From Candidatus Thorarchaeota archaeon (GTDB taxonomy: Archaea; Asgardarchaeota; Thorarchaeia; Thorarchaeales; Thorarchaeaceae), in the NCBI GenBank assembly GCA_003662765.1, contig QMYR01000005.1:1-32754 (forward strand): a DNA stretch of 32,754 nucleotides. The letters are read 5' to 3'. The notes under the pieces are model-generated. The model had not been told where the DNA came from and searched no databases. It worked only from the letters and a program-made list of their open reading frames with translations. Shown piece by piece: positions 1-32,754 of the stretch. Made by a program: the position numbers and the translations under genes. Each line of letters begins with the position of its first letter. Within the stretch, counting starts at the first letter, position 1.

Positions 1-1118
<1,118 letters not shown>

Positions 1119-16784: not shown

Positions 16785-18032
16785 TCACTCAAAGAGATCC
16801 TTTGCAATACGGCTTAGGCGCGGCTCACTGTCAAGAACCTCTCCAATCTGCTTCCTACTTACGGCCAGCCTTATCTTCTTCGTACGACCATATCGCCCCT
16901 TCGAGATGACGGTAGTGTTGATAAGCCCCAACATGTCCAGCTCGGAGATCAGGTCAGAAACCCTGCGCTGTGTCAGAGTGTCCAGAGACAATGCTCGTGC
17001 AACCTCTGTGTAGACATTGAAACACTCACCTGTAAAGATGTCACGCTTGCCCTTCTTGGTGAGTGCATAGACTGCAAAGAGGACCGCCTTTGACTGCATT
17101 GGAAGTGTCTTGATGGCCTCAGAAACACTGTCACGCTCCAAGATCTTCTGTGCTTCTCGTACATGTTCCTGTGTGACCTTATCGTCACCTCGACGTTCTG
17201 CGAGCTCCCCAGCAGTCCTCAAAAGATCAAGGGCTCGACGTGCATCACCATGCTCCTGAGCCGCAAGGGCACCAACGAGGTTTATCACACCCTCATCAGC
17301 GATCACCCCATCGTTGAATGCTAGGGACACTCGTTGCTCAAGAATCCCTTTCAGCTCCACGGCGTTATAGGGTGGAAACACGACCTCTTCCTCACCAAGG
17401 CTGCTGAGTACGCGTGGGTCCAGCATCTCCTTGAACTTGAGGTCGTTGCTGATTCCAATGATGGAAATCCTGCTGTTCTTCAATTCCCCGTTCATCCGTG
17501 TGAGGCCGTACAGGATATCGTTGCCTTGGGTGACATCACGCTTGAGCAGACTGTCCACCTCATCGAGAACCACAACGAGAATGTTCGCCTCCTCGTCAAG
17601 CTTGTTCTTGAGAACACTGCGAATCTCGTCAGTGGGAAGACCAGTGAATGGCACCTCAGAACCATCGGGCATCCGTGCACCTATCTGCTCGCATAGGCTT
17701 CTCAGCACTCGGTAGTTAGTACCTACAATGCGGCAATTCACAAAGGCGCTCAAGGGGGGCCGGACGCTGCTGTCGGTCGCCTTGTCAATCAGTGCCTTGA
17801 GGACGTATTTCGCAACGACCGTCTTTCCTGTCCCAGTCTTCCCGTAGCAGAGGATATTCGATGGCGGGGCACCACGAAGCGCGGGCCCGAGAATGGATGC
17901 GATTCTGCTCATCTGTTCGTCACGGTACGGTAGCTTGTCAGGCACAAAGGTCGGTCTCAACGCGTTTCGGTTGCGGAAGATTGACTGGCCCTGCAGGAAC
18001 TTGTCGAAGAGTTTGTCAAGCGGTTTCTCCAA
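16785..18032 (-). CDS. cdc6: Orc1/Cdc6 replication initiator AAA+ protein
   Basis: Walker A CYGKTGTGKT, Walker B LVVVLDEVDSLL, C-terminal winged helix (TEVARALSLDTLTQRRVSDLISELDMLGLI). The track start is 18158; a TTG at 18032 is proposed because the upstream extension is low-complexity and coincides with ORB-like repeats. Confidence 0.93.
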   Translation of the reverse strand: MEKPLDKLFDKFLQGQSIFRNRNALRPTFVPDKLPYRDEQMSRIASILGPALRGAPPSNILCYGKTGTGKTVVAKYVLKALIDKATDSSVRPPLSAFVNCRIVGTNYRVLRSLCEQIGARMPDGSEVPFTGLPTDEIRSVLKNKLDEEANILVVVLDEVDSLLKRDVTQGNDILYGLTRMNGELKNSRISIIGISNDLKFKEMLDPRVLSSLGEEEVVFPPYNAVELKGILEQRVSLAFNDGVIADEGVINLVGALAAQEHGDARRALDLLRTAGELAERRGDDKVTQEHVREAQKILERDSVSEAIKTLPMQSKAVLFAVYALTKKGKRDIFTGECFNVYTEVARALSLDTLTQRRVSDLISELDMLGLINTTVISKGRYGRTKKIRLAVSRKQIGEVLDSEPRLSRIAKDLFE

Positions 18033-18218
18033 CTCAGCTTCACATCTCCACTGGAAGTCGTCGTTGTTTCCTCTGTATCCACTGGAGCCTGTGGAACCTG
18101 TGGAGATAAAGGCACGTATTACCAAGCAGTCTAGCTGACCAACAGGTGTTATCATCAAAAGTCATATCAACAATACGAGTGGCCACACGCGCCGTGACAT
18201 GGGAGAGGACACACCGCC
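18033..18218. promoter_or_regulatory. candidate replication origin region with ORB-like repeats
   Basis: TCTCCACTGGAAG (18045-18057; reverse complement CTTCCAGTGGAGA), TCCACTGGAG (18078-18087), CCTGTGGA x2 (18088-18095, 18097-18104), directly upstream of cdc6. Confidence 0.55.
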
Positions 18219-18845
18219 ATGAAACTCCGAGATTTGGAGATTGCACTCGAAACGATAGAGAGAAGGTCTGAGAGAGAGGTCACACTGGAGGACTATCCCA
18301 CGCCTGCGACCATTGCAGCAGCGATAATCTACGCCGCGCAGATGGAGCACGGGGACATCATTGACAAGGTCGTGTGCGATCTCGGATGCGGGGACGGAGT
18401 CTTTGCCATTGGTGCAGCCCTGATGGGTGCGCGTCGTGTTATTGGGGTCGATATACAATCCAAAGCCTTAAAGGTCTGCCAACGGAACTCGAAACTGCTC
18501 GGGACAGATGGCACGACAGACTGGGTCCTAGGGGAGGTTCCTTCTCTGGAGTTTAGAGAAACCATAGACACTGTGGTGAGCAATCCTCCCTTTGGGGTCA
18601 AGAAACGCGGAGCCGACCTAGTCTTCCTGAGGAAGGCACTGTCCATAGCCAGAGTGACGTACAGTATCCATCTGGCAGGTGAAAAGAACAGACAATTCCT
18701 GACGAGGAACGTCGAGAAACTCGGAGGAATCGTGACCCAGGTTGAAACGTTCGAGTTCCCGATTCGACGGCTGTTCGAGTTCCATAGAAAAGAGAAACAC
18801 ATGACAAAAGTGAATCTGTATCGAATCGAGATGAAAGAGAGGTGA
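18219..18845 (+). CDS. METTL5-like RNA/DNA adenine methylase
   Basis: 208 aa; DLGCGDGVFAIGAALMGARRVIGVDI, NPPFGVKKRGADLVFLRKAL and YSIHLAGEKN fit the METTL5 family. Confidence 0.88.
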   Translation: MKLRDLEIALETIERRSEREVTLEDYPTPATIAAAIIYAAQMEHGDIIDKVVCDLGCGDGVFAIGAALMGARRVIGVDIQSKALKVCQRNSKLLGTDGTTDWVLGEVPSLEFRETIDTVVSNPPFGVKKRGADLVFLRKALSIARVTYSIHLAGEKNRQFLTRNVEKLGGIVTQVETFEFPIRRLFEFHRKEKHMTKVNLYRIEMKER

Positions 18846-19606
18846 CAGAAGTGGCAGATGTCAAGAGCGGGGACATAGTGGTGCCTGGCGATCAACTGTG
18901 CGTGATTGAAGAGTTCTCTCCCAGTTTCGGCACCTATGAGGAGAATGGAATAGTGTATGCAGCCACCTCGGGCGAGGTTGCGGTAGACGTCAAGAGGCGA
19001 GAGATAAAGGTCGTTGATCCTGATGGCTCGGTACGGCTCGCTCTGCCAATACGGGGAGATGTCCTTCTTGGTGAGGTCATCAATGTGTACGATCAGCGAG
19101 CAGAAGTCAACATTGTCAGACGAAATGGAGTGGACATTCACAATCCCCTTGTGGGTGAGATTCACATTAGCAATGTAACAAGACGTTATGTGAAGTCTAT
19201 GTACGATGTTCTCAAGCCTGGCGACATAGTCCGGGCTAGGGCCCTGAACACACACACGCTACCAGTTCAGTTGAGCCTCGTTGGTCCAGAGTTTGGAGTA
19301 ATCTTTGCAAAATGCGGGAAGTGCGGCAATCCCTTGACAGTAACTACACACAATAACATGATCTGTTTGAAGTGCGAGAACAGAGAAACCCGTGAAACTG
19401 CCAATGATTATGGCCAGCGATTCGGCTTGGAACCGCGGCCTGACCTCGCACCGCGGAGGAGGATGACACGGGGGCCACCGAGAAGGGACAGACCGTCCAG
19501 ACCCGGCACGGGCAGAAGAGCCCCATCAAGACCTAGAGGTGATAGGCACTCACCACGAGGGAGGACATCAGGTCCACGCAGATCATCCATTAAGAGGAGA
19601 AGGTAA
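18842..19606 (+). CDS. csl4: exosome subunit Csl4 with Arg-rich C-terminal tail
   Basis: GDIVVPGDQLCVIEEFSPSFGTYEENGIVYAATSGEV, S1-like domain, zinc ribbon CGKCGNPLTV...MICLKCENRE. GTG start overlapping the upstream stop. Confidence 0.92.
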   Translation: MTEVADVKSGDIVVPGDQLCVIEEFSPSFGTYEENGIVYAATSGEVAVDVKRREIKVVDPDGSVRLALPIRGDVLLGEVINVYDQRAEVNIVRRNGVDIHNPLVGEIHISNVTRRYVKSMYDVLKPGDIVRARALNTHTLPVQLSLVGPEFGVIFAKCGKCGNPLTVTTHNNMICLKCENRETRETANDYGQRFGLEPRPDLAPRRRMTRGPPRRDRPSRPGTGRRAPSRPRGDRHSPRGRTSGPRRSSIKRRR

Positions 19607-19608
19607 TC

Positions 19609-19899
19609 ATGGAACCACGAGTCCTAGAGAGCAGCAGATACGAATTGAAGATTGAGATAGTGGGGGAGGGCCACTCCTTCTGCAACCTACTCCGTAAGAC
19701 CCTCTTAGAGGAGCCAGCGGTGGAGTTTGCGGGGTACAGCATTGACCATCCCCTTTTGGCAAATCCCGTGTTCACGCTCAGGACGAAGCGTCGACAGGCC
19801 AACGTTGTCTTGAGAGAAGCGTTGGAGAAAATGCTTGCACGTACGGAGGAGTTTCGCAAGAAGTTCGTGCAAGCGGTTTCTGACCACGAGGTCAAGTAG
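19609..19899 (+). CDS. rpoL: DNA-directed RNA polymerase subunit L (Rpb11 homolog)
   Basis: 96 aa; GEGHSFCNLLRKTLLEEPAVEFAGYSIDHPLLANPVFTLRT. Confidence 0.93.
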   Translation: MEPRVLESSRYELKIEIVGEGHSFCNLLRKTLLEEPAVEFAGYSIDHPLLANPVFTLRTKRRQANVVLREALEKMLARTEEFRKKFVQAVSDHEVK

Positions 19900-19972
19900 A
19901 CACTCTGGATTCCTGCGGGCGCGTGGTCGTTTGTGGCGGTCGCTGGTACATCATGAAACTGCACGAGAGATT

Positions 19973-20353
19973 ATGAATGACACGGGCCTAGCTCAGATTG
20001 GCGACACGCTTGTGAACCTATGCTATTCTGTGGCAAAGAGCCTAACCATCGGCAAGATGGTTGGGGAGAAGGTCAGGGACAGCGTTCTTGCCAAGGCCAT
20101 TCGATCAAATCCCATCTACGGGCAGATTGGAAGACGAACTGACGCGGGGGCCGCTGGCGATGCCTATGAGGCCATAATGGCATATCTCTGGCTCACGGGG
20201 CAGACAACCATAGAAGAGATCATCACGATTCTGAGGGGCAATCTTGTCATCGATGACAGGACGAGTAGAAAACGAGAAGCAGAGGCTGCGGCCTTGGCAT
20301 TTCAGAAGCTCTTGGAAACCATGGCCTCAAGACTTCCTAAAGAGTCGCAGTGA
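19973..20353 (+). CDS. ribonuclease III-like protein (archaeal small RNase III family)
   Basis: LAQIGDTLVNLCYSVAKSLTIGKMVGEKVRDSVLAKAIR...DAGAAGDAYEAIMAYLWLTGQTTIEE. ATG at 19973; the track start 19835 overlaps rpoL. Confidence 0.75.
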   Translation: MNDTGLAQIGDTLVNLCYSVAKSLTIGKMVGEKVRDSVLAKAIRSNPIYGQIGRRTDAGAAGDAYEAIMAYLWLTGQTTIEEIITILRGNLVIDDRTSRKREAEAAALAFQKLLETMASRLPKESQ

Positions 20354-20432
20354 TGTTCGCCTTATGCTACCGCGACGCAAGCCTTAATTTGAGGATTCAT
20401 CGCCACGAGGGCAACGCGCGAGGTTCTATGTC

Positions 20433-20762
20433 ATGGAGTTCTGCGATAAGTGTGGCGCGATGATGGTCCCAGTAACATCGGAGGATGGGACTCGCGTCCT
20501 GAAATGTCGTAGCTGCGGCCACACGAGAGAGTTGAAGGGCAATCTCAGGGTGTCACACAAGATTAAGAAGTCGCCGCGCGACAAGATTGTGGTCGTAGAG
20601 GATGACTCCATCCCGATGCCTGTCACAAAAGCCACATGTCCAAAATGTGGCAATAACGAGGCATACTATTGGACTGTTCAGACACGGAGAGGAGATGAAG
20701 GGGCCACCGAGTTCTACAGGTGTACTAGGTGCAAGTACACATGGCGCGAATATGGCGGCTGA
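20433..20762 (+). CDS. tfs: transcription factor S (TFS/RPB9/TFIIS-like)
   Basis: Two zinc ribbons, CDKCGAMMVP...LKCRSCGH and CPKCGNNEAYYWTVQTRRGDEGATEFYRCTRCKYTWREY. Confidence 0.95.
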   Translation: MEFCDKCGAMMVPVTSEDGTRVLKCRSCGHTRELKGNLRVSHKIKKSPRDKIVVVEDDSIPMPVTKATCPKCGNNEAYYWTVQTRRGDEGATEFYRCTRCKYTWREYGG

Positions 20763-21198
20763 GGGACCCGTGGACCTTTTTTACCATGTGCGCAATAGTA
20801 CGAGTGAGGTCTTTGCGGAGACGAGGTGGATGAGTGAAAAGTCTTTCAGAGCTAGACGCCCCTCACCACTGGTCACGATTCGTTCATTGAACAGTGATAT
20901 TGAGGGCCCCATTAGGATCATCGGACTGGTCGTCGAGGCACGACCAGGTACGGCCATTGTGCAGGACCTGATGGATGATGTGGACAGTGCTGGATCCATC
21001 CAAGTGATTGTCGAGGGGCAGCTCGAGGTGGAACACAAGTACATCCTAATTGGAGAAGTGACAGAGAAGAAGACGGACCACGGAAAGACTCTGATTCTCA
21101 ATGCTGATATCGCACACGATATCACCGATTTGGACATACGAGAGTTCAAGAGGACACTAGACCTAGAGAGAGAGGTACATTCATATCTAGTCCGGTGA
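20752..21198 (+). CDS. predicted OB-fold nucleic-acid-binding protein
   Basis: 148 aa from the ATG at 20752; GPIRIIGLVVEARPGTAIVQDLMDDVDSAGSIQVIVEG...KYILIGEVTEKKTDHGKTLILNADIAHDI is OB-like. Overlaps the end of tfs. Confidence 0.65.
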   Translation: MAAEGPVDLFYHVRNSTSEVFAETRWMSEKSFRARRPSPLVTIRSLNSDIEGPIRIIGLVVEARPGTAIVQDLMDDVDSAGSIQVIVEGQLEVEHKYILIGEVTEKKTDHGKTLILNADIAHDITDLDIREFKRTLDLEREVHSYLVR

Positions 21199-21362
21199 GG
21201 CATCTGCAACCAGAGGCAATCTATTTTAATTGGGGAACGCGTGATGATGAACCACATCCTCAGTGAGGAGGTCCGGCACAGACTGATACTGTTCGTGATG
21301 CGAATGGGTGATTTTCAACTGGATTCGGCTCATGAGCAATCAACTTGAACGGAGGAGCAGAC

Positions 21363-22118
21363 ATGTTTCACGCGACCCTTGATAGTACCAAGACCTGGAA
21401 ACAGATAGTGGATGCCCTTGCCACTCTTCTGACAGAGGTCAACTTCGTGATATCGGAAACCGGAATCTCGCTATGTCAGCTCGACTCGTCGAAAGCAGCA
21501 ATGATTGACCTCAAGCTCCCAGCGGGGGTATTCCAAGAATACACTTGCAAGGGCGAGCATGTTGTCTGTCTTGGTGTGGACGAGCTGGTCAGGATTAGCA
21601 AGAGAATGGCCGGTGATGACAGACTGGAGTTCAGCCTCGACGAGAAGACGCAAAGATTCGAGATTCGAATGATTGGCCAAGCTGACAGAAAGTTCAGTCT
21701 GATGCTCCTGACACCGCCGGACGAGGAGAGAAAGAGCAAGCCAATGCCATATGATGTTCGTGCGGAGATGTATGCGAACGCGTTCAAGCAGGCAGTCAAG
21801 GACATTGGGGTGGTTTCGGGGCACATCAAGATTCATGCAGACAAAGAGTCCCTGACCTTCACCGGCGAGGGCGGCATTGGTGAGGCCCAGGTCGTTCTCA
21901 AGATAGGCGATGAGTCACCATTGTATGACCTTCAGATGGAGAAACCGGCCACCGCAATGTACTCGCTCAGCTATCTGTCAGAGATCTCAAAGGCGATGTC
22001 AAGCGACAGTCTTGTGCTCCAGTTTGCGACAGACAAGCCGATTCAGATGGAGTTCTCTGTCGCCGAGGGCGGCGCTATCAAGTTCATTCTCGCCCCGCGG
22101 ATTGAGCGGAGGAGATAG
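21363..22118 (+). CDS. pcn: DNA polymerase sliding clamp (PCNA)
   Basis: 251 aa; MFHATLDSTKTWKQIVDALATLLTEVNF...LDSSKAAMIDLKLPAGVFQEY...LAPRIERRR. ATG at 21363. Confidence 0.96.
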   Translation: MFHATLDSTKTWKQIVDALATLLTEVNFVISETGISLCQLDSSKAAMIDLKLPAGVFQEYTCKGEHVVCLGVDELVRISKRMAGDDRLEFSLDEKTQRFEIRMIGQADRKFSLMLLTPPDEERKSKPMPYDVRAEMYANAFKQAVKDIGVVSGHIKIHADKESLTFTGEGGIGEAQVVLKIGDESPLYDLQMEKPATAMYSLSYLSEISKAMSSDSLVLQFATDKPIQMEFSVAEGGAIKFILAPRIERRR

Positions 22119-22234
22119 AAACCGTATTCAGAAGAAGAAAGCAGAGGTGGATGGACCTCACTCCGTCAGTGGGGAGTCCGCAGAGAAGGGGCCCCAGTCC
22201 TCATGTATAGAGTCCATCGGGAGCTGTCACCGTA

Positions 22235-23617
22235 ATGTCCTCAAGAGAACGGGAGAAACGGCAGAAGTTCCTACGCCTCATGTTCCAGCAGTACTACAGA
22301 AACCACGCTGCCGACATCGACACCCCTGACAGACTCCACATGCGAGAGTTCGCCTTGGAAACATGGGAGTACACTTGGCGTTGCACACGCCGGGCCGAAA
22401 CAGATGCCTCGGGTCAGACCGTATATGTGGGTTGTGGGAGAAAGGGAACTGCAATTCAAAGACCATCTGTCTGCCCCGTGTGCAACTCGCCCACAGTTAC
22501 GTCCACAAACTGGTCACGGCATCTTGGCTTCCGGACTGCAAAGGCCATGAGATCTGAGCTTGCAGCACGGGCCCCACATAGCGTCTATCACTCTGCTGCC
22601 TTCTACAACATCCCAGTAGCAAGAGACATGCAGGAGAAACAGTGGCAGGGCGCCGAGCTTGTCTTTGATATCGATGCAGACCACCTAGATGCACCCTGTA
22701 CGCAAGAACACGACAGCTGGGTGTGTGCGAATCCGAATTGCATGAAGACAGGTTGGGGAGAGCCTCCGGAACAGGGGTGCCCTTCGTGCGGTGGACTGGA
22801 GTTTCATAGACGAAAGTGGATCTGTGACAGATGTATGGACGACGCCCGGCGAAACACCCTGCGTGTCTACGATGAGTTCTTAGTGGGCGACTTTGGGATT
22901 GATTCCGACCAGATTGTCATCAATTACAGCGGGCATCGAGGATATCACATCCGTGTCAGGGATCCCCGCGTCTTCAAGCTAGACTCTGCGGCACGCGTCG
23001 AGATAGCCCATGAGATCACGGGTGTCGGTTTCGATGGGAATAGCGTTGTTGGAACCACACTGAACATTCCTCAAGCTCCTGCGCGGAGCCTTGCCGGATG
23101 GGGGGGTCGTGTTGTAGACGCCATCGTGAACTTGATACGGAATATCGACTCGTATGAGGGAGGGCAGCATTGGGTTTCGCGACTGAGAAGAAACAGGGAA
23201 GCTATCATTGCCGGACTGTTGAAGAACCCGCCCGAGTTCTGGAGGGGCGCAGGCATAAGTGTGAAGTCGTGGAGAGAGATAGCCACAGTCGCTGTGGCCA
23301 TGTACGGTGGCAAGATAGATGTGCCTGTGACTCATGATGTTCACAGGGTAATAAGACTCATCGGAAGTATCCATGGCAAGACCGGTTTTGTCGTTGCGAA
23401 ACTCACGAGAGAATCAATTGAGGACTTCGACCCATTTGCAGATGCACTTGCCTTTGGCGCGGATAATCTGCGTGTCAGGGTGCTGGGTGGTCTATTGGAG
23501 GTGCCAAGGTTTCGGATTGGTGATGAGTTATATGGGCCCTACGGCGACGAGGTCGTTGACCTTCCTATGAGTGCTGCCATGTTCCTGTTATGCAAGGGGG
23601 TTGCAGTTCTTGGCTGA
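22235..23617 (+). CDS. priS: DNA primase small subunit PriS
   Basis: ELVFDIDADHLDAPC (catalytic D-x-D), zinc knuckle WICDRCMDDAR, YSGHRGYHIRVRD, HDVHRVIRLIGSIHGKTGF. Confidence 0.95.
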   Translation: MSSREREKRQKFLRLMFQQYYRNHAADIDTPDRLHMREFALETWEYTWRCTRRAETDASGQTVYVGCGRKGTAIQRPSVCPVCNSPTVTSTNWSRHLGFRTAKAMRSELAARAPHSVYHSAAFYNIPVARDMQEKQWQGAELVFDIDADHLDAPCTQEHDSWVCANPNCMKTGWGEPPEQGCPSCGGLEFHRRKWICDRCMDDARRNTLRVYDEFLVGDFGIDSDQIVINYSGHRGYHIRVRDPRVFKLDSAARVEIAHEITGVGFDGNSVVGTTLNIPQAPARSLAGWGGRVVDAIVNLIRNIDSYEGGQHWVSRLRRNREAIIAGLLKNPPEFWRGAGISVKSWREIATVAVAMYGGKIDVPVTHDVHRVIRLIGSIHGKTGFVVAKLTRESIEDFDPFADALAFGADNLRVRVLGGLLEVPRFRIGDELYGPYGDEVVDLPMSAAMFLLCKGVAVLG

Positions 23618-24224
23618 ACTGAACTATGACAACATACGACGCATCTGGGAGAAGGAAATCAACTCGGAAGAACTTCAAGACCTAGATGATCTGACTATAG
23701 GGAAAATGGCAGAATATCTGTCGCACGTGAGGCTTGCTCTCACAGAAGTGCCAGCTGACAACAACCTGCAAGTAGAGATTTACACACGAGAGATTGAGAA
23801 TCTCGAGTACATGTTGACGGACCTCCTCAAGATTAGAATGAGAAAGATACTGGAAGCCGCACTTGCACAACAATCCCCTGCTGGGGTGATGACCATTGCA
23901 GAGGAGGAGTTTTACAATAGGGTTTCACGTGGAGTCAGTGCTCACGCCTCCTTCTTGGAATCCGTCCTCACCGGCAGCGTGTCCGTTGACACAGAGGTGG
24001 AGAGAACGACCGGTGGCGTAGCGGCCACAGATAATGGTGGTATGGAGTATGTGACCGTGATGTTCACACGGCCTATTGATACACCATTCATAGGACTGGA
24101 TGAGAAGACATATGGACCATTCGAGAGGGAAGATGTGGCTACAATCCCAGTTGCAAATGCGCAGGTGTGGCTACGTGATGGCACGGTCGTCAGGGTGGTC
24201 GCACAAGATGTGGAGCGCGATTAG
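23610..24224 (+). CDS. GINS complex subunit (Gins51/Sld5-like)
   Basis: N-terminal helical A domain (LNYDNIRRIWEKEINSEELQDLDDLTIGKMAEYL...TREIENLEYMLTDLLKIRMRKIL), C-terminal B domain. TTG at 23610 overlaps the priS stop. Confidence 0.83.
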   Translation: MAELNYDNIRRIWEKEINSEELQDLDDLTIGKMAEYLSHVRLALTEVPADNNLQVEIYTREIENLEYMLTDLLKIRMRKILEAALAQQSPAGVMTIAEEEFYNRVSRGVSAHASFLESVLTGSVSVDTEVERTTGGVAATDNGGMEYVTVMFTRPIDTPFIGLDEKTYGPFEREDVATIPVANAQVWLRDGTVVRVVAQDVERD

Positions 24225-24852: not shown

Positions 24853-25404
24853 GTGACGACGATGACAGAAACCGATGAGAAGGCTGGACCGCCGGTCACC
24901 TTAGTTGAGCCAATAGACATGTCGAAGCTGAATCGGGACTTTCGCCGAGAGATTCAGAGCATGCCTGACGGTGATGAGCTGAGTGCTTGTTTTGCCTGTT
25001 CCACTTGCACAGCGGCCTGCCCCATTGCAAACCAATGGAAGTACAAACCGCATCAACTGATTCGCATGATTCTATTGGGAATGCGAGAAGAGGTGCTTAC
25101 GTCTCGAGAGATATGGGAGTGCCTGACTTGTTTCCAGTGTCAGGAACGCTGCCCTCAGAATGTCAGGGTGACCGACATTCTGTTTGACTGCAAGAACCTT
25201 GCAGCAGAGGAGGGACACGTACCAGAGAACATCTTGGGGCTGGCCAAGGAACTGCTGGAAAAGGGGCAGCTCTATGTTGTCACAGCCGACTGGGAGAGAG
25301 AAGACCTTGATCTTGAGCCCGAGGTTCCAGGACTCTCCACAGACGAGTTCAAGTCCATCCTGAAGGGGACGCGTACTGGCAGGCTTGTGGGCGGTGATCA
25401 GTGA
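24853..25404 (+). CDS. hdrC: HdrC-like 4Fe-4S protein
   Basis: Two CxxCxxCxxxCP clusters: CFACSTCTAACP and CLTCFQCQERCP. GTG 24853 or ATG 24862. Confidence 0.93.
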   Translation: MTTMTETDEKAGPPVTLVEPIDMSKLNRDFRREIQSMPDGDELSACFACSTCTAACPIANQWKYKPHQLIRMILLGMREEVLTSREIWECLTCFQCQERCPQNVRVTDILFDCKNLAAEEGHVPENILGLAKELLEKGQLYVVTADWEREDLDLEPEVPGLSTDEFKSILKGTRTGRLVGGDQ

Positions 25405-25405
25405 G

Positions 25406-26272
25406 ATGCCGACATACAACCTCTACATGGGATGCAGTGTCCCAGCAAACTACCCCAACTACGAGGCTGCCACGCTGAAGGTCGCAGAAGCACTGGGAAT
25501 GGAACTCATCTATATGGAGGGAGTGGGATGCTGTGGCAGCCCGAATCTGAGGGCCATCGACTACTTCGGTTGGCTATTGGTCAATGCTAGGACGTTGGCG
25601 ATAGGTGAGAAGACGGGACATGATATCGTCACGCCATGCAATGGCTGCTTTGGCTCCTTGAAAGATGTCCTCTATCACCTCAAACATGACGAGGAAGACA
25701 TGAAAAAGGTGAATCAGGAGCTGGAGAAGTTCGGACTTGAGTTAAAGGGGACCGTGAGGGTCAGACATGTCATCGAGGCCATGTATACCGACATAGGTAT
25801 CGAGGAGATCGAGAAGAAAGTCACGCGACCTCTAGACGGTGTGAGGATTGCGATACACTATGGGTGCCATCTCCTGAGACCGGCTGACGTGACAGAGGTC
25901 ACACCCGATATCTTCGACGAACTGCTTCGTGTCACGGGGGCCACTGTTGTCGAGTATCCACTCTGGAAACAGTGCTGTGGTGCCACCGTCCTGCCGGTGA
26001 ACGAGCCTCTTGCGGTACGACTCGCACGGGACAAACTCAAGTCGATAAAGGATGCTGGTGCCGAGTTCATAATGGTCGTGTGTCCGGCCTGTGGAAACCA
26101 GCTCGACCTTCAGCAATTTGGGATTAAAGACACGTATGGAGAGGAGTACAACCTGCCTGTTCTGTTCTATCCCCAGATTCTCGCGTTGGCAATGGGAATG
26201 AGCGAAGATGACGTTGGACTAAGCATGAACCGGGTCCCAGCGGATCCGATACTTGATCATCTCACGGGATAG
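25406..26272 (+). CDS. hdrB: HdrB-like protein (two CCG domains)
   Basis: GVGCCGSPN, PCNGCFGSL, HYGCHLLRP, WKQCCGATV, CPACGNQLD. Confidence 0.93.
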   Translation: MPTYNLYMGCSVPANYPNYEAATLKVAEALGMELIYMEGVGCCGSPNLRAIDYFGWLLVNARTLAIGEKTGHDIVTPCNGCFGSLKDVLYHLKHDEEDMKKVNQELEKFGLELKGTVRVRHVIEAMYTDIGIEEIEKKVTRPLDGVRIAIHYGCHLLRPADVTEVTPDIFDELLRVTGATVVEYPLWKQCCGATVLPVNEPLAVRLARDKLKSIKDAGAEFIMVVCPACGNQLDLQQFGIKDTYGEEYNLPVLFYPQILALAMGMSEDDVGLSMNRVPADPILDHLTG

Positions 26273-26277
26273 GAGAG

Positions 26278-27540
26278 GTGAGGCAGGACGTGTCGGATCC
26301 GGTACTCATCATCGGAGCGGGCGTTGCAGGCCTGACCGCAGCAGTGGAGCTGGCCGACTCGGGCGTTAGGGTCGTGCTAGTGGAACAGAAGACGACAGTT
26401 GGTGGGAACGCACTTGATCTCTACAAGGCGTTTCCAACCGATGACTGTTTCTACTGTTTCGAGAGTAACAGGGACAGACCAGGCATTCGAAAGTGCTTCT
26501 ACAGGAGTGCTCTTCTTGATCAACCGAACATCGAGCTTCGAATCAATACGACTGTCAGCGAGATCTCTGGTGAACCCGGCAGGTTTGAAGTCAAGCTTGC
26601 CATAGGACCACAATATGTTGACCCCATCAAGTGCATAATGTGCGGCATCTGCATGAAACACTCGAATGCATTCGTTTTGATATCTCCGCAGTGCCAGCCA
26701 CAGGCTGTCGTCTACGATCCGACCAGAGCTGATGACGGCGTCCAGCGAGCAGCCGAGGAGTGCCCAACAAGGGCAATCAATCTGGACGCCAAGCCGGCAG
26801 AAGAAACCATCACCGTGTCCGACATCATCGTTGCCACAGGCTATCATGAGATGAAACCTGTCAACATGGACGAATACGGGTATGGGAAGTATCCCGACGT
26901 TGTGACTCAACTTGAACTCGCAAAGATGCTTGACCCCAATGGAGAAACTGGGGGTGCACTTCTAAGACCGTCTGACGGTGCGCCAGTCAGCCATGTTCTC
27001 ATGGTTCAGTGCGTGGGAAGCCGCGATGAGAACCACTACCCCTATTGTTCGAAGATCTGTTGTGTCTTCGCATTGAAACATGCAAACATCATTGCAATGG
27101 AACGTGAGAACATAGATGTCAGCGTTGTCTACATGGATATCCGTACCTATGACAGACACGAGCGATACTATCGTGATGCTAGGGTTGCAGGGGTGAATTT
27201 CATCCGTGGGCGCGTGCAGCGACTTGCCCCCTCTTCAGACGGTGGACTAGACGTGATTGTCTATGATTCTTTACTCGACAGGTACCTCAGACTCCATACG
27301 GACCTGTTTGTGCTCTCCTCTGCGCTGGAGCCACCGGAGGGAGGAAAGGGGATAATCAAGGCACTGGGACTGAAGTCCGCAAGTGGATTTGTCGCCCCCC
27401 ACGACCTCGCTCCCGAGGAAACTGTCGTGGCGGGTGATCATGTCTATGCATGTGGTACGGCTTTGGGTCCAGCCGAGGTTCCTGAGAGCGTGACTCAAGC
27501 GAGAGCGGTTGTTTCGAAGATACTTCAGAGCAGGAAGTGA
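26278..27540 (+). CDS. HdrA-like flavoprotein, QmoA type
   Basis: FAD-binding VLIIGAGVAGLTAAVELADSGVRVVLVEQ; LLRPSDGAPVSHVLMVQCVGSRDENHYPYCSKICC is QmoA-like; 420 aa; one CxxCxxC segment (KCIMCGICMKHSN). Confidence 0.88.
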   Translation: MRQDVSDPVLIIGAGVAGLTAAVELADSGVRVVLVEQKTTVGGNALDLYKAFPTDDCFYCFESNRDRPGIRKCFYRSALLDQPNIELRINTTVSEISGEPGRFEVKLAIGPQYVDPIKCIMCGICMKHSNAFVLISPQCQPQAVVYDPTRADDGVQRAAEECPTRAINLDAKPAEETITVSDIIVATGYHEMKPVNMDEYGYGKYPDVVTQLELAKMLDPNGETGGALLRPSDGAPVSHVLMVQCVGSRDENHYPYCSKICCVFALKHANIIAMERENIDVSVVYMDIRTYDRHERYYRDARVAGVNFIRGRVQRLAPSSDGGLDVIVYDSLLDRYLRLHTDLFVLSSALEPPEGGKGIIKALGLKSASGFVAPHDLAPEETVVAGDHVYACGTALGPAEVPESVTQARAVVSKILQSRK

Positions 27541-27547
27541 TCAAAGG

Positions 27548-29701
27548 ATGGGCGAGAAGTCAGCCGTGGTGTTGTGCAATTGTGGGAATACTCTGAAGCT
27601 TGACTACGACTTCCTGCAGACAGAGATCGGAAAGATGGATGGGGTTTCGTCGGTCATACTCCTCGAAACACTGTGTCAGGAGAACGGGCTCGCAAGGCTG
27701 AAGGACATAATCGAGGAGGCGGGTGGACGTGTGGTGATAGCGGCCTGTACCGCCCAGAAGCTTCGGCCGAGAGTCAACTATAGGATAGCTCAGGCTGGAA
27801 CAGACACATCCATGATTCAATATGTCAATATTCGTGAACACTGCGCTTGGGTGCATGAAAACACCGATGAGGCAACACGGAAGGCTCTCGACATGGTGAG
27901 GGGAGGAGTTGCGCTCGCAAACTTGGCAACCCCCTTGACAGTACAGACAAAGAATGTCAAGAAACATGTTACTGTAATCGGCGGTGGGATTGCAGGTATC
28001 GAGGCCGCCCTCAGCCTATCGGGGTTGGGATACGATATCACGTTGATTGAACTGAGCGACAGGCTGGGAGGCCATGTTGCAAACCTCCCTGTCGTTGCAC
28101 CTACAGGCAAGTCGGGTAGAGAAATACTTGACAGTCGGCTCAAGTCTTTGGAGAATGACAAGAGAATCACAGTGATGACCAGAACGCAAGTGAAGTTTGT
28201 TGAGGGTGAGATGGGAAACTTCACCGTTCACTACATCTGTGATGAGGAGGAGGGCACTCTTGATACATCTGCAGTAGTGATTGCCACAGGCTTCAAAGAG
28301 TTCAAGCCTACGATGATGGAAGAGTACAGGTACGGCAAGAACCCTGATGTGGTCACGCAATACGAACTGTCGGAAATGTTGACGAATGAAGATCTGAAGA
28401 GACCCTCAGACGGCGGACCGATCAAGGAGGTCGTCATGGTTCAGTGTGTTGGGAGCCGCTCGGAAGAATACAAGCGTGACTGCAGCAAGCTGTGTTGCAC
28501 CTTCGCCATAGACAATGCTCTTGAGATCCTCAAGAGGGTTCCCGATGCCCGTGTCAGGATTGTCTACATGGACATTAGAGTGCCGTTTGAACACGAGATT
28601 ATCTACAAGGAGTCGAGAGAGAAGGGAGTAGACTACATCAGAGGCCGGGTCGGCATGGTGTGGGAGGAAAACGGACAGACGCATGTCCGCATCTATGATT
28701 CACTTCTCGACCAGTACTTCGAAACCACACCTGACCTCGTCGTGTTGTCAGCTGCAGTGTTGCCCCCGGACGGACTATACGAGCTGTCAGAGAGCCTCGG
28801 ATATGCGATCGAGAGTGATGGCCACATCAAGGAACTCTACGGCAAGCTGCGACGAAACGAAACTCGCCGGAGAGGTGTTGTTGCTGTTGGGGCCGTCACG
28901 CGGCCACAGTTCGTCCATGAGGCTGTCACGGAGGCACAGGCAGGAGCACTCGTGATCCATAATGAGTTACAGGGTGGGGAGATAGAAGCCGTGGCACGCG
29001 GTGCGGTCTTGAATGTTGATGATTGCGTGGGTTGTAGCCTATGTGCCCAGCAGTGTCCTCGCGGCGTACCAATTATGATTGAACAGACAGATGCTGAAGA
29101 GAGCACCGAGAAGTTCCTGTTCAAGGCGTCTATCGACACCCTGAATTGCCATGCATGTGGTGTGTGTCAGAGCCTTTGCCCCTCGGGTGCCACCCAGCTC
29201 AACTTTCTCAGCAACGAGCAGCTGTGGGCCCAAATCGCGGCCACACTTCAAGATGCTGGGCCGGACTATCCAATCACACTCTGTTTCCACTGTGAGGAAT
29301 GTGCGGTGTCCACGATTGACATTGTGGGAATACGCAGGATGCAGTACCCCGCCAGCACCCGATTCATTCCCGTCCCTTGCGCAGGGCGCGTGAGTACAAT
29401 CGACATTCTAAAGGCCCTTGAACACGGTGCCAGTACAGTCATGATAGCGGCCTGCGAAACAGACCGCTGTCACATGGGTGGCACTGGAAACGAGGTCGCA
29501 CAGTCACAGGTAGATGTTGCTCGCGACATCCTCAACGCAATCGGCTGGAGGGGCGAGAGAGTGGACATGTTTCGAATGTTCAGTGCTGAGCCTGAGAGAT
29601 TCACAAGGGCCGTCGAGGAGATGGTCAGGCGAGCAAGGGAACTTGGGCCCACGCCCGTACACAGCGGCACGGCTGGAAGATGGATGGAGGTGACAGAATG
29701 A
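27548..29701 (+). CDS. HdrA-MvhD fusion, QmoB type
   Basis: FAD domain VTVIGGGIAGIEAALSLSGLGYDITLIE; two 4Fe-4S motifs (CVGCSLCAQQCP, CHACGVCQSLCP); C-terminal MvhD-like CFHCEECAVSTIDIVGIRRMQYP...FIPVPCAGRV...ACETDRCHMGGTGNE. Confidence 0.9.
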   Translation: MGEKSAVVLCNCGNTLKLDYDFLQTEIGKMDGVSSVILLETLCQENGLARLKDIIEEAGGRVVIAACTAQKLRPRVNYRIAQAGTDTSMIQYVNIREHCAWVHENTDEATRKALDMVRGGVALANLATPLTVQTKNVKKHVTVIGGGIAGIEAALSLSGLGYDITLIELSDRLGGHVANLPVVAPTGKSGREILDSRLKSLENDKRITVMTRTQVKFVEGEMGNFTVHYICDEEEGTLDTSAVVIATGFKEFKPTMMEEYRYGKNPDVVTQYELSEMLTNEDLKRPSDGGPIKEVVMVQCVGSRSEEYKRDCSKLCCTFAIDNALEILKRVPDARVRIVYMDIRVPFEHEIIYKESREKGVDYIRGRVGMVWEENGQTHVRIYDSLLDQYFETTPDLVVLSAAVLPPDGLYELSESLGYAIESDGHIKELYGKLRRNETRRRGVVAVGAVTRPQFVHEAVTEAQAGALVIHNELQGGEIEAVARGAVLNVDDCVGCSLCAQQCPRGVPIMIEQTDAEESTEKFLFKASIDTLNCHACGVCQSLCPSGATQLNFLSNEQLWAQIAATLQDAGPDYPITLCFHCEECAVSTIDIVGIRRMQYPASTRFIPVPCAGRVSTIDILKALEHGASTVMIAACETDRCHMGGTGNEVAQSQVDVARDILNAIGWRGERVDMFRMFSAEPERFTRAVEEMVRRARELGPTPVHSGTAGRWMEVTE

Positions 29702-31971
29702 GCAACGCAGCCACGCAGGAACGGCACATTCCTCCGAAACGCCAACGGATGCTGGACATGATTATGGTCCTCGGGGGCCTCAAGGAAGAGGCAGCAATTC
29801 CGCTGAGCCGCGTGAATGAGGAGATTAGACTACTCAAGGAAGAGCTGTCACCTCTCACAGCAGAGATTGTTGCATACCCGGAGAAGTACTTCCAAGAGTT
29901 TCTGACCGCAGTGGAGAGAGCAGGAATCATAGATCAGATCACGGACCCGTCTATCCTCTCAGAGGCCATCAACAATCTCGAGGCCGCCCTTAAGACGGGG
30001 GAGTCAGGCTCCCTGTCAACACTTCTTGGTCTACTTCGGGAGGCCGAGGCCAAACATCAAGATATGAGTGAGAAAACAGAGCCCCAACTTGATGCAGTCG
30101 ATGTTGCTAAGGTCATTGCGCCTCTGCCAGCGATCATCAGTCAGATAGAAACGGTCGTCGCCGAGTACGAGAAACAACGTGCCGCAGACGCGGAGGCTGC
30201 CGAAAATGAGCTGAAGGAGATAACAGAAATATTCGCCAATCTCGCCAACCGTGCAATGGAGGACCCAGAGAATGTTCTTGCAGAGCTTCAGAAACTGGGG
30301 TCCAAGACACGGTATGGGCCGTTTCTGAGAGCGGCAGCTCAATTGAAGCGAGGGCGACGGGAGGGCCGTATCCCTGATGACAGGTTTGCAATGCTCGTTG
30401 CCGAGAACATGGTCACCGAGATGCGCCGCGGCATCATCATGTTCATACTCAATCATATGGGATCAAGAACGGTTCCCCAGCTGGCTGAGCTCATGAAGAC
30501 AACCCCAGCCCTAGTCCAGCGCGCGATAATCACCATGATTCAGCGTTCTGATGTGGAGATAGTGGGTGTGGAGGGTGATGCACCAGTCTTTGCGCGTGTC
30601 CTAGGAGCGGTACCGGAGAGCACTCTTGCAATCAAACGAGTAGTGCAACAGTTCAGAAGCCTCGTGAAGACCGTTGATGAAACGACTGCCAAGATCCTCA
30701 ACGACGCTCTGAGTCGACTGTCCTCCGTATTGGAGCGGCTGCAACTGCTTGGAGAATACGACGAAACTAGGTTGGCTGATAGCGTCAAACAACTACGCGA
30801 GCTTGCGGACAAGGGTACAGAGGCTGCACTCAGCACTCCTGCCTCGATTGATACGGAACAACTGAAACTCTTAATATCCGCAGGTCTAGAGGCCTTTGCC
30901 CGATTCAGACTCAAGATCACGCTTGAGAAGGGCCCCAACCTTGTGAAGGGCACAAACGTATACGGCGAGAAACTTGACCCCGAGGTCTATGCACGCATAA
31001 TGGACACGTATCTGGACAATGAGATTGAGAGAGGCACAATTCTACTACTAATCAGAGAGCATGGGGCCATGACGGTCAAGGATCTTGCTGAGCGGACTGG
31101 AATCCCACCCGATCGCGTGCTGCAACACCTCCTAAGAATGAAACGCGATGAGCTGTTGACCATTGCAGGTGAAGCGCATGGGTACGTTCTGTATGATGTG
31201 CCAAGGACACCAAATGAGGCAGAGGTGGCCGTGCAGACGGTGACGGCTCTTGCATACGACCTTGCCCCTGCCATGAAAGAACTGGAAACCCTTGTCGAGA
31301 AACTCACTCCGAAGGACATTGGCAGACTTGTCAACACCATCGAAATCTTCTCCAAGTCGCGGGACAAGATGGCCAAGCTGAGTGTGGGCGGAGCGGTGGT
31401 GGCAGAGGACATTCTCACCAACATTGAGGGGAAAATCAAGTCCGCACTTGCCATGGCATACAGGACACGGGCCCGCATACCCAGTACGCGCCCCAAAGTG
31501 ACTATTGACGACCTCATGGATGTGGATGTGCCGACTGTCATGGATGAGTACCGCGACATGATGGGATATGCGCCGCTCCTCGGCTTCGGAACAATCAAGT
31601 GGGATCACTCCAAGTGCCTTGGCTGCAAGTCCTGTGAACTGGCATGCCCGGAGGATGCCATTTTCCTGAAACCAGTCATTGAAATCCCACAGTTCTTTGA
31701 GTTCAGTGAGGAGTCGCTGGAGAAGCTACCTGCTAACAAGGCATTGTTCTACCGGACCGTACGCAGTCTTGCAACGCGTCGGCCGACGGAGAATATCATG
31801 TTGCAGCATGAGGCACCGGGATTCGGGCACATAGAGGTGGACCTTTGGTTGTGTGTGGCATGCCGAACATGCGTGAGGAGATGTCCGGGCCCTGATGAGG
31901 GGGCCCTCGAGCTAGAACTGAAGTGGAGCCTGCCTGAGGTCGTCAGGCACATAGCAGCGGAGGCCGAATGA
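29698..31971 (+). CDS. large winged-helix x2 / helical / 2x[4Fe-4S] ferredoxin fusion protein
   Basis: 757 aa from the ATG at 29698. Two related wHTH-like segments, helical linkers, C-terminal CLGCKSCELACPEDA and CVACRTCVRRCPGPDEGA. ATGA overlap with the upstream gene. Confidence 0.85.
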   Translation: MSNAATQERHIPPKRQRMLDMIMVLGGLKEEAAIPLSRVNEEIRLLKEELSPLTAEIVAYPEKYFQEFLTAVERAGIIDQITDPSILSEAINNLEAALKTGESGSLSTLLGLLREAEAKHQDMSEKTEPQLDAVDVAKVIAPLPAIISQIETVVAEYEKQRAADAEAAENELKEITEIFANLANRAMEDPENVLAELQKLGSKTRYGPFLRAAAQLKRGRREGRIPDDRFAMLVAENMVTEMRRGIIMFILNHMGSRTVPQLAELMKTTPALVQRAIITMIQRSDVEIVGVEGDAPVFARVLGAVPESTLAIKRVVQQFRSLVKTVDETTAKILNDALSRLSSVLERLQLLGEYDETRLADSVKQLRELADKGTEAALSTPASIDTEQLKLLISAGLEAFARFRLKITLEKGPNLVKGTNVYGEKLDPEVYARIMDTYLDNEIERGTILLLIREHGAMTVKDLAERTGIPPDRVLQHLLRMKRDELLTIAGEAHGYVLYDVPRTPNEAEVAVQTVTALAYDLAPAMKELETLVEKLTPKDIGRLVNTIEIFSKSRDKMAKLSVGGAVVAEDILTNIEGKIKSALAMAYRTRARIPSTRPKVTIDDLMDVDVPTVMDEYRDMMGYAPLLGFGTIKWDHSKCLGCKSCELACPEDAIFLKPVIEIPQFFEFSEESLEKLPANKALFYRTVRSLATRRPTENIMLQHEAPGFGHIEVDLWLCVACRTCVRRCPGPDEGALELELKWSLPEVVRHIAAEAE

Positions 31972-32064: not shown

Positions 32065-32754
32065 ATGATTGATTTCTCATTGACCGAGGAACAGAAGAAA
32101 CTCCAACTAAAGGCACGGGAGATTGCGCAGGAGTACATGATACCATATGCTCACTACTACGACAAGATAGGAGAATTTCCCTGCCCCATCATCGAAAAGG
32201 CATGGGAACCCGGACTCATGAACCTATGAATCCCAAAGGAGTACGGTGGACCCGGTCTTGGAGTGCTTGAGCAGTGCATTGTTGTTGAAGAGATGGCTGC
32301 CGGTTGTGCAGGGATGACCACCAGCATCTATGTCAACGGTCTCGGCGTCGAGCCCTCCTTGTAGCGGGAACGCATGAACAGAGGGAGAAGTATCTCAGAC
32401 CGTTGACAGAGGACCTCAAGTTCACCTCTTTCGCGTGCTCAGAGCTAGGCATGGGAAGCGATGTTGCAGGAATTCAGACCAGAGTGACACGGGACGGGGA
32501 CTACTATGTCATCAACGGAAGTAAGTTCTGGATCACAAGCGCTCCCTTTGCAGACAACTTTACAGTCTTTGCAACACTTGACCCCAAGCTGAGGTATGAG
32601 GGCCTCTGTGCATTCATCGTGGATGCTGATACACCTAGCCTCAAGGCTGGTCGACCCGTGGAGAAGATGGGGCATCGGGCCTCAACAACATCTGCAGTGA
32701 TGTTTCGTGACGTTAGAGTGCCAGCAGAGAATCTGCTGGGCAAAGAGGGGGATG
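32065..32754 (+). pseudogene. acyl-CoA dehydrogenase, disrupted (in-frame TGA and a frameshift) and truncated by the window end
   Basis: [24 protein letters not shown]...PGLMNL*IPKEYGGPGLGVLEQCIVVEEMAAGCAGMTTSIYVNGLGVEP then a frame change to LVAGTHEQREKYLRPLTEDLKFTSFACSELGMGSDVAGIQTRV...VINGSKFWITSAPFADNFTVFA. TGA 32227-32229; frameshift about 32355-32360. Confidence 0.85.

Follow-up and report, generated by a model that had tools for sequence, protein, structure and literature searches.

The window, i.e. the whole stretch of 32,754 bp that was analysed, belongs to a MAG of Thorarchaeota (Asgard archaea) and begins with an archaeal 16S rRNA gene (positions 1-1116, minus strand) that is cut by the contig start. 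Positions 16785-24224 are occupied by a replication island composed of Cdc6/Orc1, PCNA, the primase small subunit and a GINS-domain protein; assignment of the ORF at 23571-24224 as PriL was ruled out, since Pfam gave a GINS domain. Directly downstream lies an Hdr operon, whose position behind the replication island is kept across the Thorarchaeota family.

The operon contains five genes on the plus strand, mostly overlapping or separated by gaps of a few bp, which were located by ORF calls and by Pfam and NCBIfam domains. An HdrC-like protein of 183 aa with two [4Fe-4S] motifs (24853-25404) is followed by an HdrB-like protein of 295 aa (25385-26272; TIGR03288, 279 bits) with two CCG domains. 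The third gene (26278-27540) encodes a short QmoA-like HdrA, consisting of an FAD domain with a reduced inserted ferredoxin and devoid of the N- and C-terminal HdrA domains, and the fourth (27509-29701) a QmoB-like HdrA-MvhD fusion of 730 aa, in which an N-terminal cluster domain, an FAD domain lacking the inserted ferredoxin and a C-terminal 2x[4Fe-4S] domain precede FlpD/MvhD at the C terminus. The top NCBIfam match of the HdrA-like proteins was HdrA2; for QmoB this was NF040770 (HdrA2-type), with a score of 486 bits that lies below the cutoff of the family. The fifth protein (763 aa, 29680-31971) is made of helical repeats with a pair of winged helices and ends in a 2x[4Fe-4S] domain, the wHTH and Fer4 domains being recognised by domain search. 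The gene order and the domains thus agree with those that an earlier note had read from this DNA.

The same note had placed an acyl-CoA dehydrogenase (ACAD) locus behind the operon. The association is real, and the ORF at 32304 is only a fragment: reading against intact orthologues showed that the frame of this MCAD-like ACAD starts at about 32065 on the plus strand and is interrupted by a TGA codon at 32227 and, near 32350, by a frameshift before the contig ends at 32754. The damage is due to mutation or to an assembly error.

No QmoC- or HdrE-like membrane gene was found in the cluster, and HdrC and HdrB are its first two genes, so that the proposed replacement of QmoC by soluble HdrCB holds. 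Likewise no hydrogenase catalytic gene is present in the cluster, as had been claimed; at other sites the genome does encode NiFe-hydrogenase-like proteins and an ETF. Neither Flx nor apr/sat genes were seen among the clustered genes.

Practically all Thorarchaeota loci of sufficient length showed the same gene order, and this recurrence shows that the arrangement is not due to chance. Orthologues of QmoA with 67-79% identity come nearly all from Candidatus Thorarchaeota, a few being labelled Lokiarchaeota or 'archaeon'. The most specific marker of the set is the fifth subunit, which 46 of the family's 47 genomes contain, the single exception being a 0.6-Mb fragment. Among the 227 Asgard genomes searched, long matches outside the family were given by only four (G128-G131), all other matches being domain fragments; within this collection the fifth subunit is therefore confined to Thorarchaeota and Helarchaeota-type genomes. 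In the four Helarchaeota loci the fifth-subunit homologue shows 23-26% identity, the order is QmoA-QmoB-subunit 5-HdrC-HdrB, and fused double HdrA proteins lie next to the cluster; no ACAD was recognised within the fetched flank of these four loci. Double HdrA proteins of this type, about 1,010-1,190 aa long, in which the first half is QmoA-like and the second is QmoB-like and has no insert, occur in Helarchaeota and in the window genome (L111:1636-8154, L113:1775-8259, L115:1146-7678, L010:5660-9223).

Some loci depart from this pattern. In the single-contig genome G024 (contig C1) gene 5 and the ACAD lie apart from the other Hdr genes and an HdrB fragment is found elsewhere, a split that reflects a rearrangement or an assembly problem. 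An apparent loss of HdrC and HdrB in G001 was rejected as an artefact of the ORF caller at least for HdrB, which is present there. An unclassified archaeal cluster has the order HdrC-HdrB-QmoA-QmoB-HdrA(819 aa)-ferredoxin-HdrC-HdrB (L117:1621-10579); the similarity of its ferredoxin to the fifth subunit is limited to the C-terminal part of the latter. A plasmid collection gave three HdrA matches, all of them weak.

The linkage of the ACAD to the operon was evaluated in the 31 Thorarchaeota loci having at least 600 bp of downstream sequence. In 30 of them the ACAD is the next gene after gene 5, at a distance of 60-130 bp; in G015 (locus L105) the complex genes are present without an adjacent ACAD. 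The genes beyond the ACAD vary, the commonest encoding a cupin of 122-139 aa, which was observed in 20 Thorarchaeota loci one to four genes past the ACAD (e.g. L083, L084, L085). A functional link is suggested mainly by this contrast between a constant order up to the ACAD and a varied one past it. A scan for TATA-like sequences in the gap before the ACAD, with a match in one of 30 loci, seemed to speak against a promoter there; the pattern had missed a CTTATAC motif present in the gap of several loci, so that the ACAD may be co-transcribed with the operon or may be read from a promoter of its own.

The ACAD orthologues are intact proteins of 399-413 aa, and the one tested scored 413-422 bits against MCAD, medium-chain ACADs being the closest relatives. 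The IYEGTSE motif with the catalytic Glu is invariant in the orthologues, the window copy ending before it, and the equivalent of MCAD Trp166 is kept. Glu212 of MCAD, an ETF contact, has no counterpart at the position aligned with it, an observation regarded as indecisive. Several further ACADs are encoded in the genomes of the family. ETF is present in most of them, at a separate locus in the three looked at closely, and the EtfA of the window genome finds its nearest counterpart in CarE of the caffeyl-CoA reductase-Etf complex. A pair of genes for EtfB and for a CarE-closest EtfA that carries a 2x[4Fe-4S] domain at its N terminus was observed at L151:8435-10426 (also L150), and no ACAD was recognised beside the L151 pair. 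Either or both of the CarE-like ETF and the Hdr complex may serve as partners of the ACAD of the Hdr locus.

At the other end of the set, the ten ligand cysteines of HdrB, comprising both noncubane-cluster Cys sets, are invariant in 38 of 38 sequences, and the eight cluster cysteines of HdrC in all 37 Thorarchaeota orthologues. The retention of all these ligands makes a disulfide- or thiol-type two-electron site at HdrBC plausible. As to its substrate, the earlier note had named Mcr and Apr as genes to look for: McrA was found in none of 35 genomes, the controls being positive, and no AprA match exceeded the cutoff in 35 genomes; DsrC was absent. With neither McrA to make CoM-S-S-CoB nor DsrC, no familiar disulfide substrate is at hand, and both a methanogenic CoM-S-S-CoB role and a DsrC-linked role are disfavoured.

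The comparison of the two HdrA-like proteins with methanogen HdrA showed that each retains what the other lacks. The N-terminal and C-terminal domains are missing from QmoA, in which the inserted ferredoxin region is retained; in QmoB the insert is missing, the N-terminal domain and the C-terminal ferredoxins are present, and MvhD forms the end of the protein. The structure model of QmoA superimposes on methanogen HdrA with a TM-score of 0.87-0.88. In the crystal structure of HdrABC-MvhADG, Cys197, one of the ligands of the N-terminal cluster, is supplied by the other HdrA copy, and complementary presence has been used as the criterion for heterodimeric HdrA in ANME (PMC9012536). The same complementarity was found here: in the alignment the Cys197 equivalent is kept in 39 of 40 QmoA sequences, which have no N-terminal domain, and in none of 37 QmoB sequences, where it is replaced by Glu, Gln or Asp and where the four N-terminal cysteines are kept throughout (37/37). 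In the window QmoA this residue is C60, which falls within a stretch (residues 51-77) modelled with low confidence. The complementary domains together with the Cys197-type ligand predict that QmoA and QmoB form an obligate asymmetric HdrA heterodimer, for which there is a precedent in ANME archaea. In a tree comparing them with methanogen HdrA structures, the QmoA and QmoB proteins of Thorarchaeota and Helarchaeota group together, apart from the methanogen structures, as the earlier note had anticipated.

Two residues, K409 and E356, have been proposed to separate bifurcating from non-bifurcating HdrA (PMC12054007). It was found that QmoA has Lys at the position of K409 and Ala at that of E356 (40/40), while QmoB has Asp and Ser, respectively (37/37). 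By this residue test, which is indicative and not a proof, the combination of Lys409 and Glu356 equivalents at the flavin occurs in neither protein. A paralogous HdrA half of the same genome keeps both Glu and Lys, and their loss is thus not general to the HdrA proteins of this genome. Moreover, the inserted ferredoxin of QmoA has four aligned cysteines in Thorarchaeota, one of two clusters being gone, as against eight in Helarchaeota. The bifurcating or confurcating character ascribed to the complex in the earlier note is consequently not borne out at the residue level, with the signature absent from QmoB and half kept in QmoA. Judged by these residues, classical bifurcation would not be the default reading, and the lysine retained in QmoA leaves room for it. 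Flavin sites without the complete signature favour a linear, non-bifurcating conduit.

The fifth subunit contains eight cysteines that are invariant across Thorarchaeota and Helarchaeota. A likeness to the C-terminal ferredoxin of HdrA is seen in its ferredoxin domain (36% identity and Z 9.3 against 8rvu_A) and suggests a stand-in for the ferredoxin lost from the C terminus of QmoA, a replacement that must be regarded as speculation. The two winged helices are similar to those of MarR/ArsR-type regulators. The model of the protein is weak overall (pTM 0.42), and matches were obtained for its domains but none for the whole fold; the best Foldseek hit was RPC62 of RNA polymerase III (E 1.5e-3), at a TM-score of about 0.1. 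In six loci, which represent a minority of the genomes, a GltD/NfnB-type domain (Fer4_20 and Pyr_redox_2) is inserted at the LGxxTRYG motif. In L081 the remaining protein is retained up to the end of the contig, and in the other five the segment after the insert is lost. Related GltD domains are also found in other reading frames of these genomes, many of 850-1160 aa. The presence of such a domain inside subunit 5 points to NAD(P)H on this side of the complex.

Taken together, these data support a cytosolic complex of the Hdr/Qmo type. Its formation, electron route, partner and direction, as we infer them, would be those of a soluble linear conduit in Thorarchaeota, composed of the asymmetric HdrA heterodimer, HdrBC and the winged-helix/ferredoxin subunit and working together with the ACAD, a reading to which we give an even chance (about 0.5). 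Electrons of pyridine nucleotides or ferredoxin would enter or leave at the side of the fifth subunit and MvhD and be carried by the C-terminal ferredoxins of QmoB and the heterodimer's FADs to HdrC and the two noncubane clusters of HdrB. The HdrB end would serve a thiol/disulfide or another two-electron partner, and would be tied to acyl-CoA/enoyl-CoA redox through the ACAD, directly or by way of the CarDE-like ETF. The enoyl-/acyl-CoA potential lies near -10 mV and that of NAD(P)H near -320 mV. A non-bifurcating version would therefore run towards enoyl-CoA reduction, and the flow favoured is from NAD(P)H or ferredoxin to the acyl-CoA or disulfide side; oxidation would need confurcation. Of the interpretation given in the earlier note, the Hdr/Qmo-type complex and its association with an ACAD thus stand, whereas bifurcation or confurcation is not supported.

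The Hdr complex might act on an unrelated disulfide and the ACAD be a mere neighbour using the unlinked CarDE-like ETF, which could serve an MCAD-like ACAD without any Hdr complex. The EtfB and CarE-like EtfA encoded elsewhere, the MCAD-like character of the ACAD with its Trp166, the 60-130 bp gap and the full set of disulfide-cluster cysteines in HdrB all agree with this, and we regard it as quite possible, if short of probable, given that adjacency persists in 30 of 31 loci while the downstream genes are reshuffled and that the familiar disulfide systems, DsrC and McrA-made CoM-S-S-CoB, are missing. At the opposite extreme the ACAD would exchange electrons directly with HdrBC, no ETF being involved, and the QmoA/QmoB core and the winged-helix subunit would provide the link to NAD(P)H. 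This we consider unlikely; if true, it would be a new electron route for acyl-CoA chemistry in anaerobic archaea. A Qmo-type role in sulfate reduction, in which QmoAB-HdrBC would feed APS reductase, is suggested by the same four-protein set, qmoAB and hdrBC without qmoC, documented in Desulfotomaculum (PMC3569383, PMC4759654), and is so strongly disfavoured by the AprA and DsrC searches and by a cluster free of apr/sat that it can practically be set aside.

Bifurcation or confurcation at the QmoA flavin would merge electrons from acyl-CoA and reduced ferredoxin onto NAD(P)+, or do the reverse. It remains rather doubtful: the lysine invariant in QmoA, the four-cysteine inserted ferredoxin, the MvhD and C-terminal ferredoxins of QmoB and the NAD(P)H module fused to subunit 5 in some genera would suit it, and against them stand the loss of the E356 equivalent from both proteins, the Asp at the K409 position of QmoB and the inserted cluster lost in Thorarchaeota but kept in Helarchaeota. 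The fifth protein, for its part, might be a redox-sensing transcription regulator of the operon and not a subunit. Its MarR/ArsR-like winged helices could be understood in this way, but a ferredoxin domain of the HdrA type, a reading frame overlapping that of QmoB and, in some genera, an inserted catalytic GltD/NfnB domain make a regulator decidedly unlikely.

The archaeal ancestor of eukaryotes was closely related to Thorarchaeota, whose handling of organic-acid electrons is relevant to syntrophy-based models of how eukaryotes arose; a single-locus Hdr/ACAD gene set that is near-universal among them offers a concrete target. The data also suggest that Hdr complexes have been put to use again where there is neither methanogenesis nor sulfate reduction, and perhaps no electron bifurcation either, which leads one to ask what disulfide or carrier is the partner of these HdrBC proteins.

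Several elements of this set have counterparts in known systems. HdrABC-MvhAGD of methanogens shares the HdrA fold, the HdrB/HdrC ligands and MvhD; in Thorarchaeota, however, HdrA is split asymmetrically, MvhAG is missing from the cluster, McrA is absent and the bifurcation signature is incomplete. HdrA2B2C2 of Methanosarcina acetivorans has the HdrA-MvhD fusion that is the best NCBIfam match of QmoB, to which Thorarchaeota add a shorter second HdrA, an extra subunit and the ACAD, their fusion being devoid of the inserted ferredoxin. In sulfate reducers FlxABCD-HdrABC and HdrL, an HdrA/glutamate synthase fusion, likewise have an NAD(P)H module feeding Hdr (PMC2702500, PMC4759654), whereas the Thorarchaeota module is fused to the winged-helix subunit, in some genera only, and Flx genes were not seen in the cluster. 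The QmoAB-HdrBC set of Desulfotomaculum and other clostridial sulfate reducers is alike in its short QmoA, HdrA-MvhD QmoB and soluble HdrBC without QmoC; it adjoins sat-aprBA, whereas the Thorarchaeota set has no APS reductase and is accompanied by the ACAD and the winged-helix ferredoxin subunit. In the tandem or fused heterodimeric HdrA of ANME the N-terminal domain and Cys197 are likewise lost from opposite copies (PMC9012536; classes in PMC12054007), and NfnB-like insertions are known in ANME-1 HdrA. In Thorarchaeota NfnB/GltD sits in a different subunit, there is no FdhAB partner, the signature Glu is lost in both copies and the complex is linked to an ACAD. Hence neither HdrBC in the place of QmoC nor tandem complementary HdrA pairs are new. 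No description of the winged-helix ferredoxin subunit was found in the Hdr/Qmo literature compared, and this subunit, its NfnB/GltD fusion in some genera, the constant link to an ACAD and the overall combination are what is new in the Thorarchaeota set.
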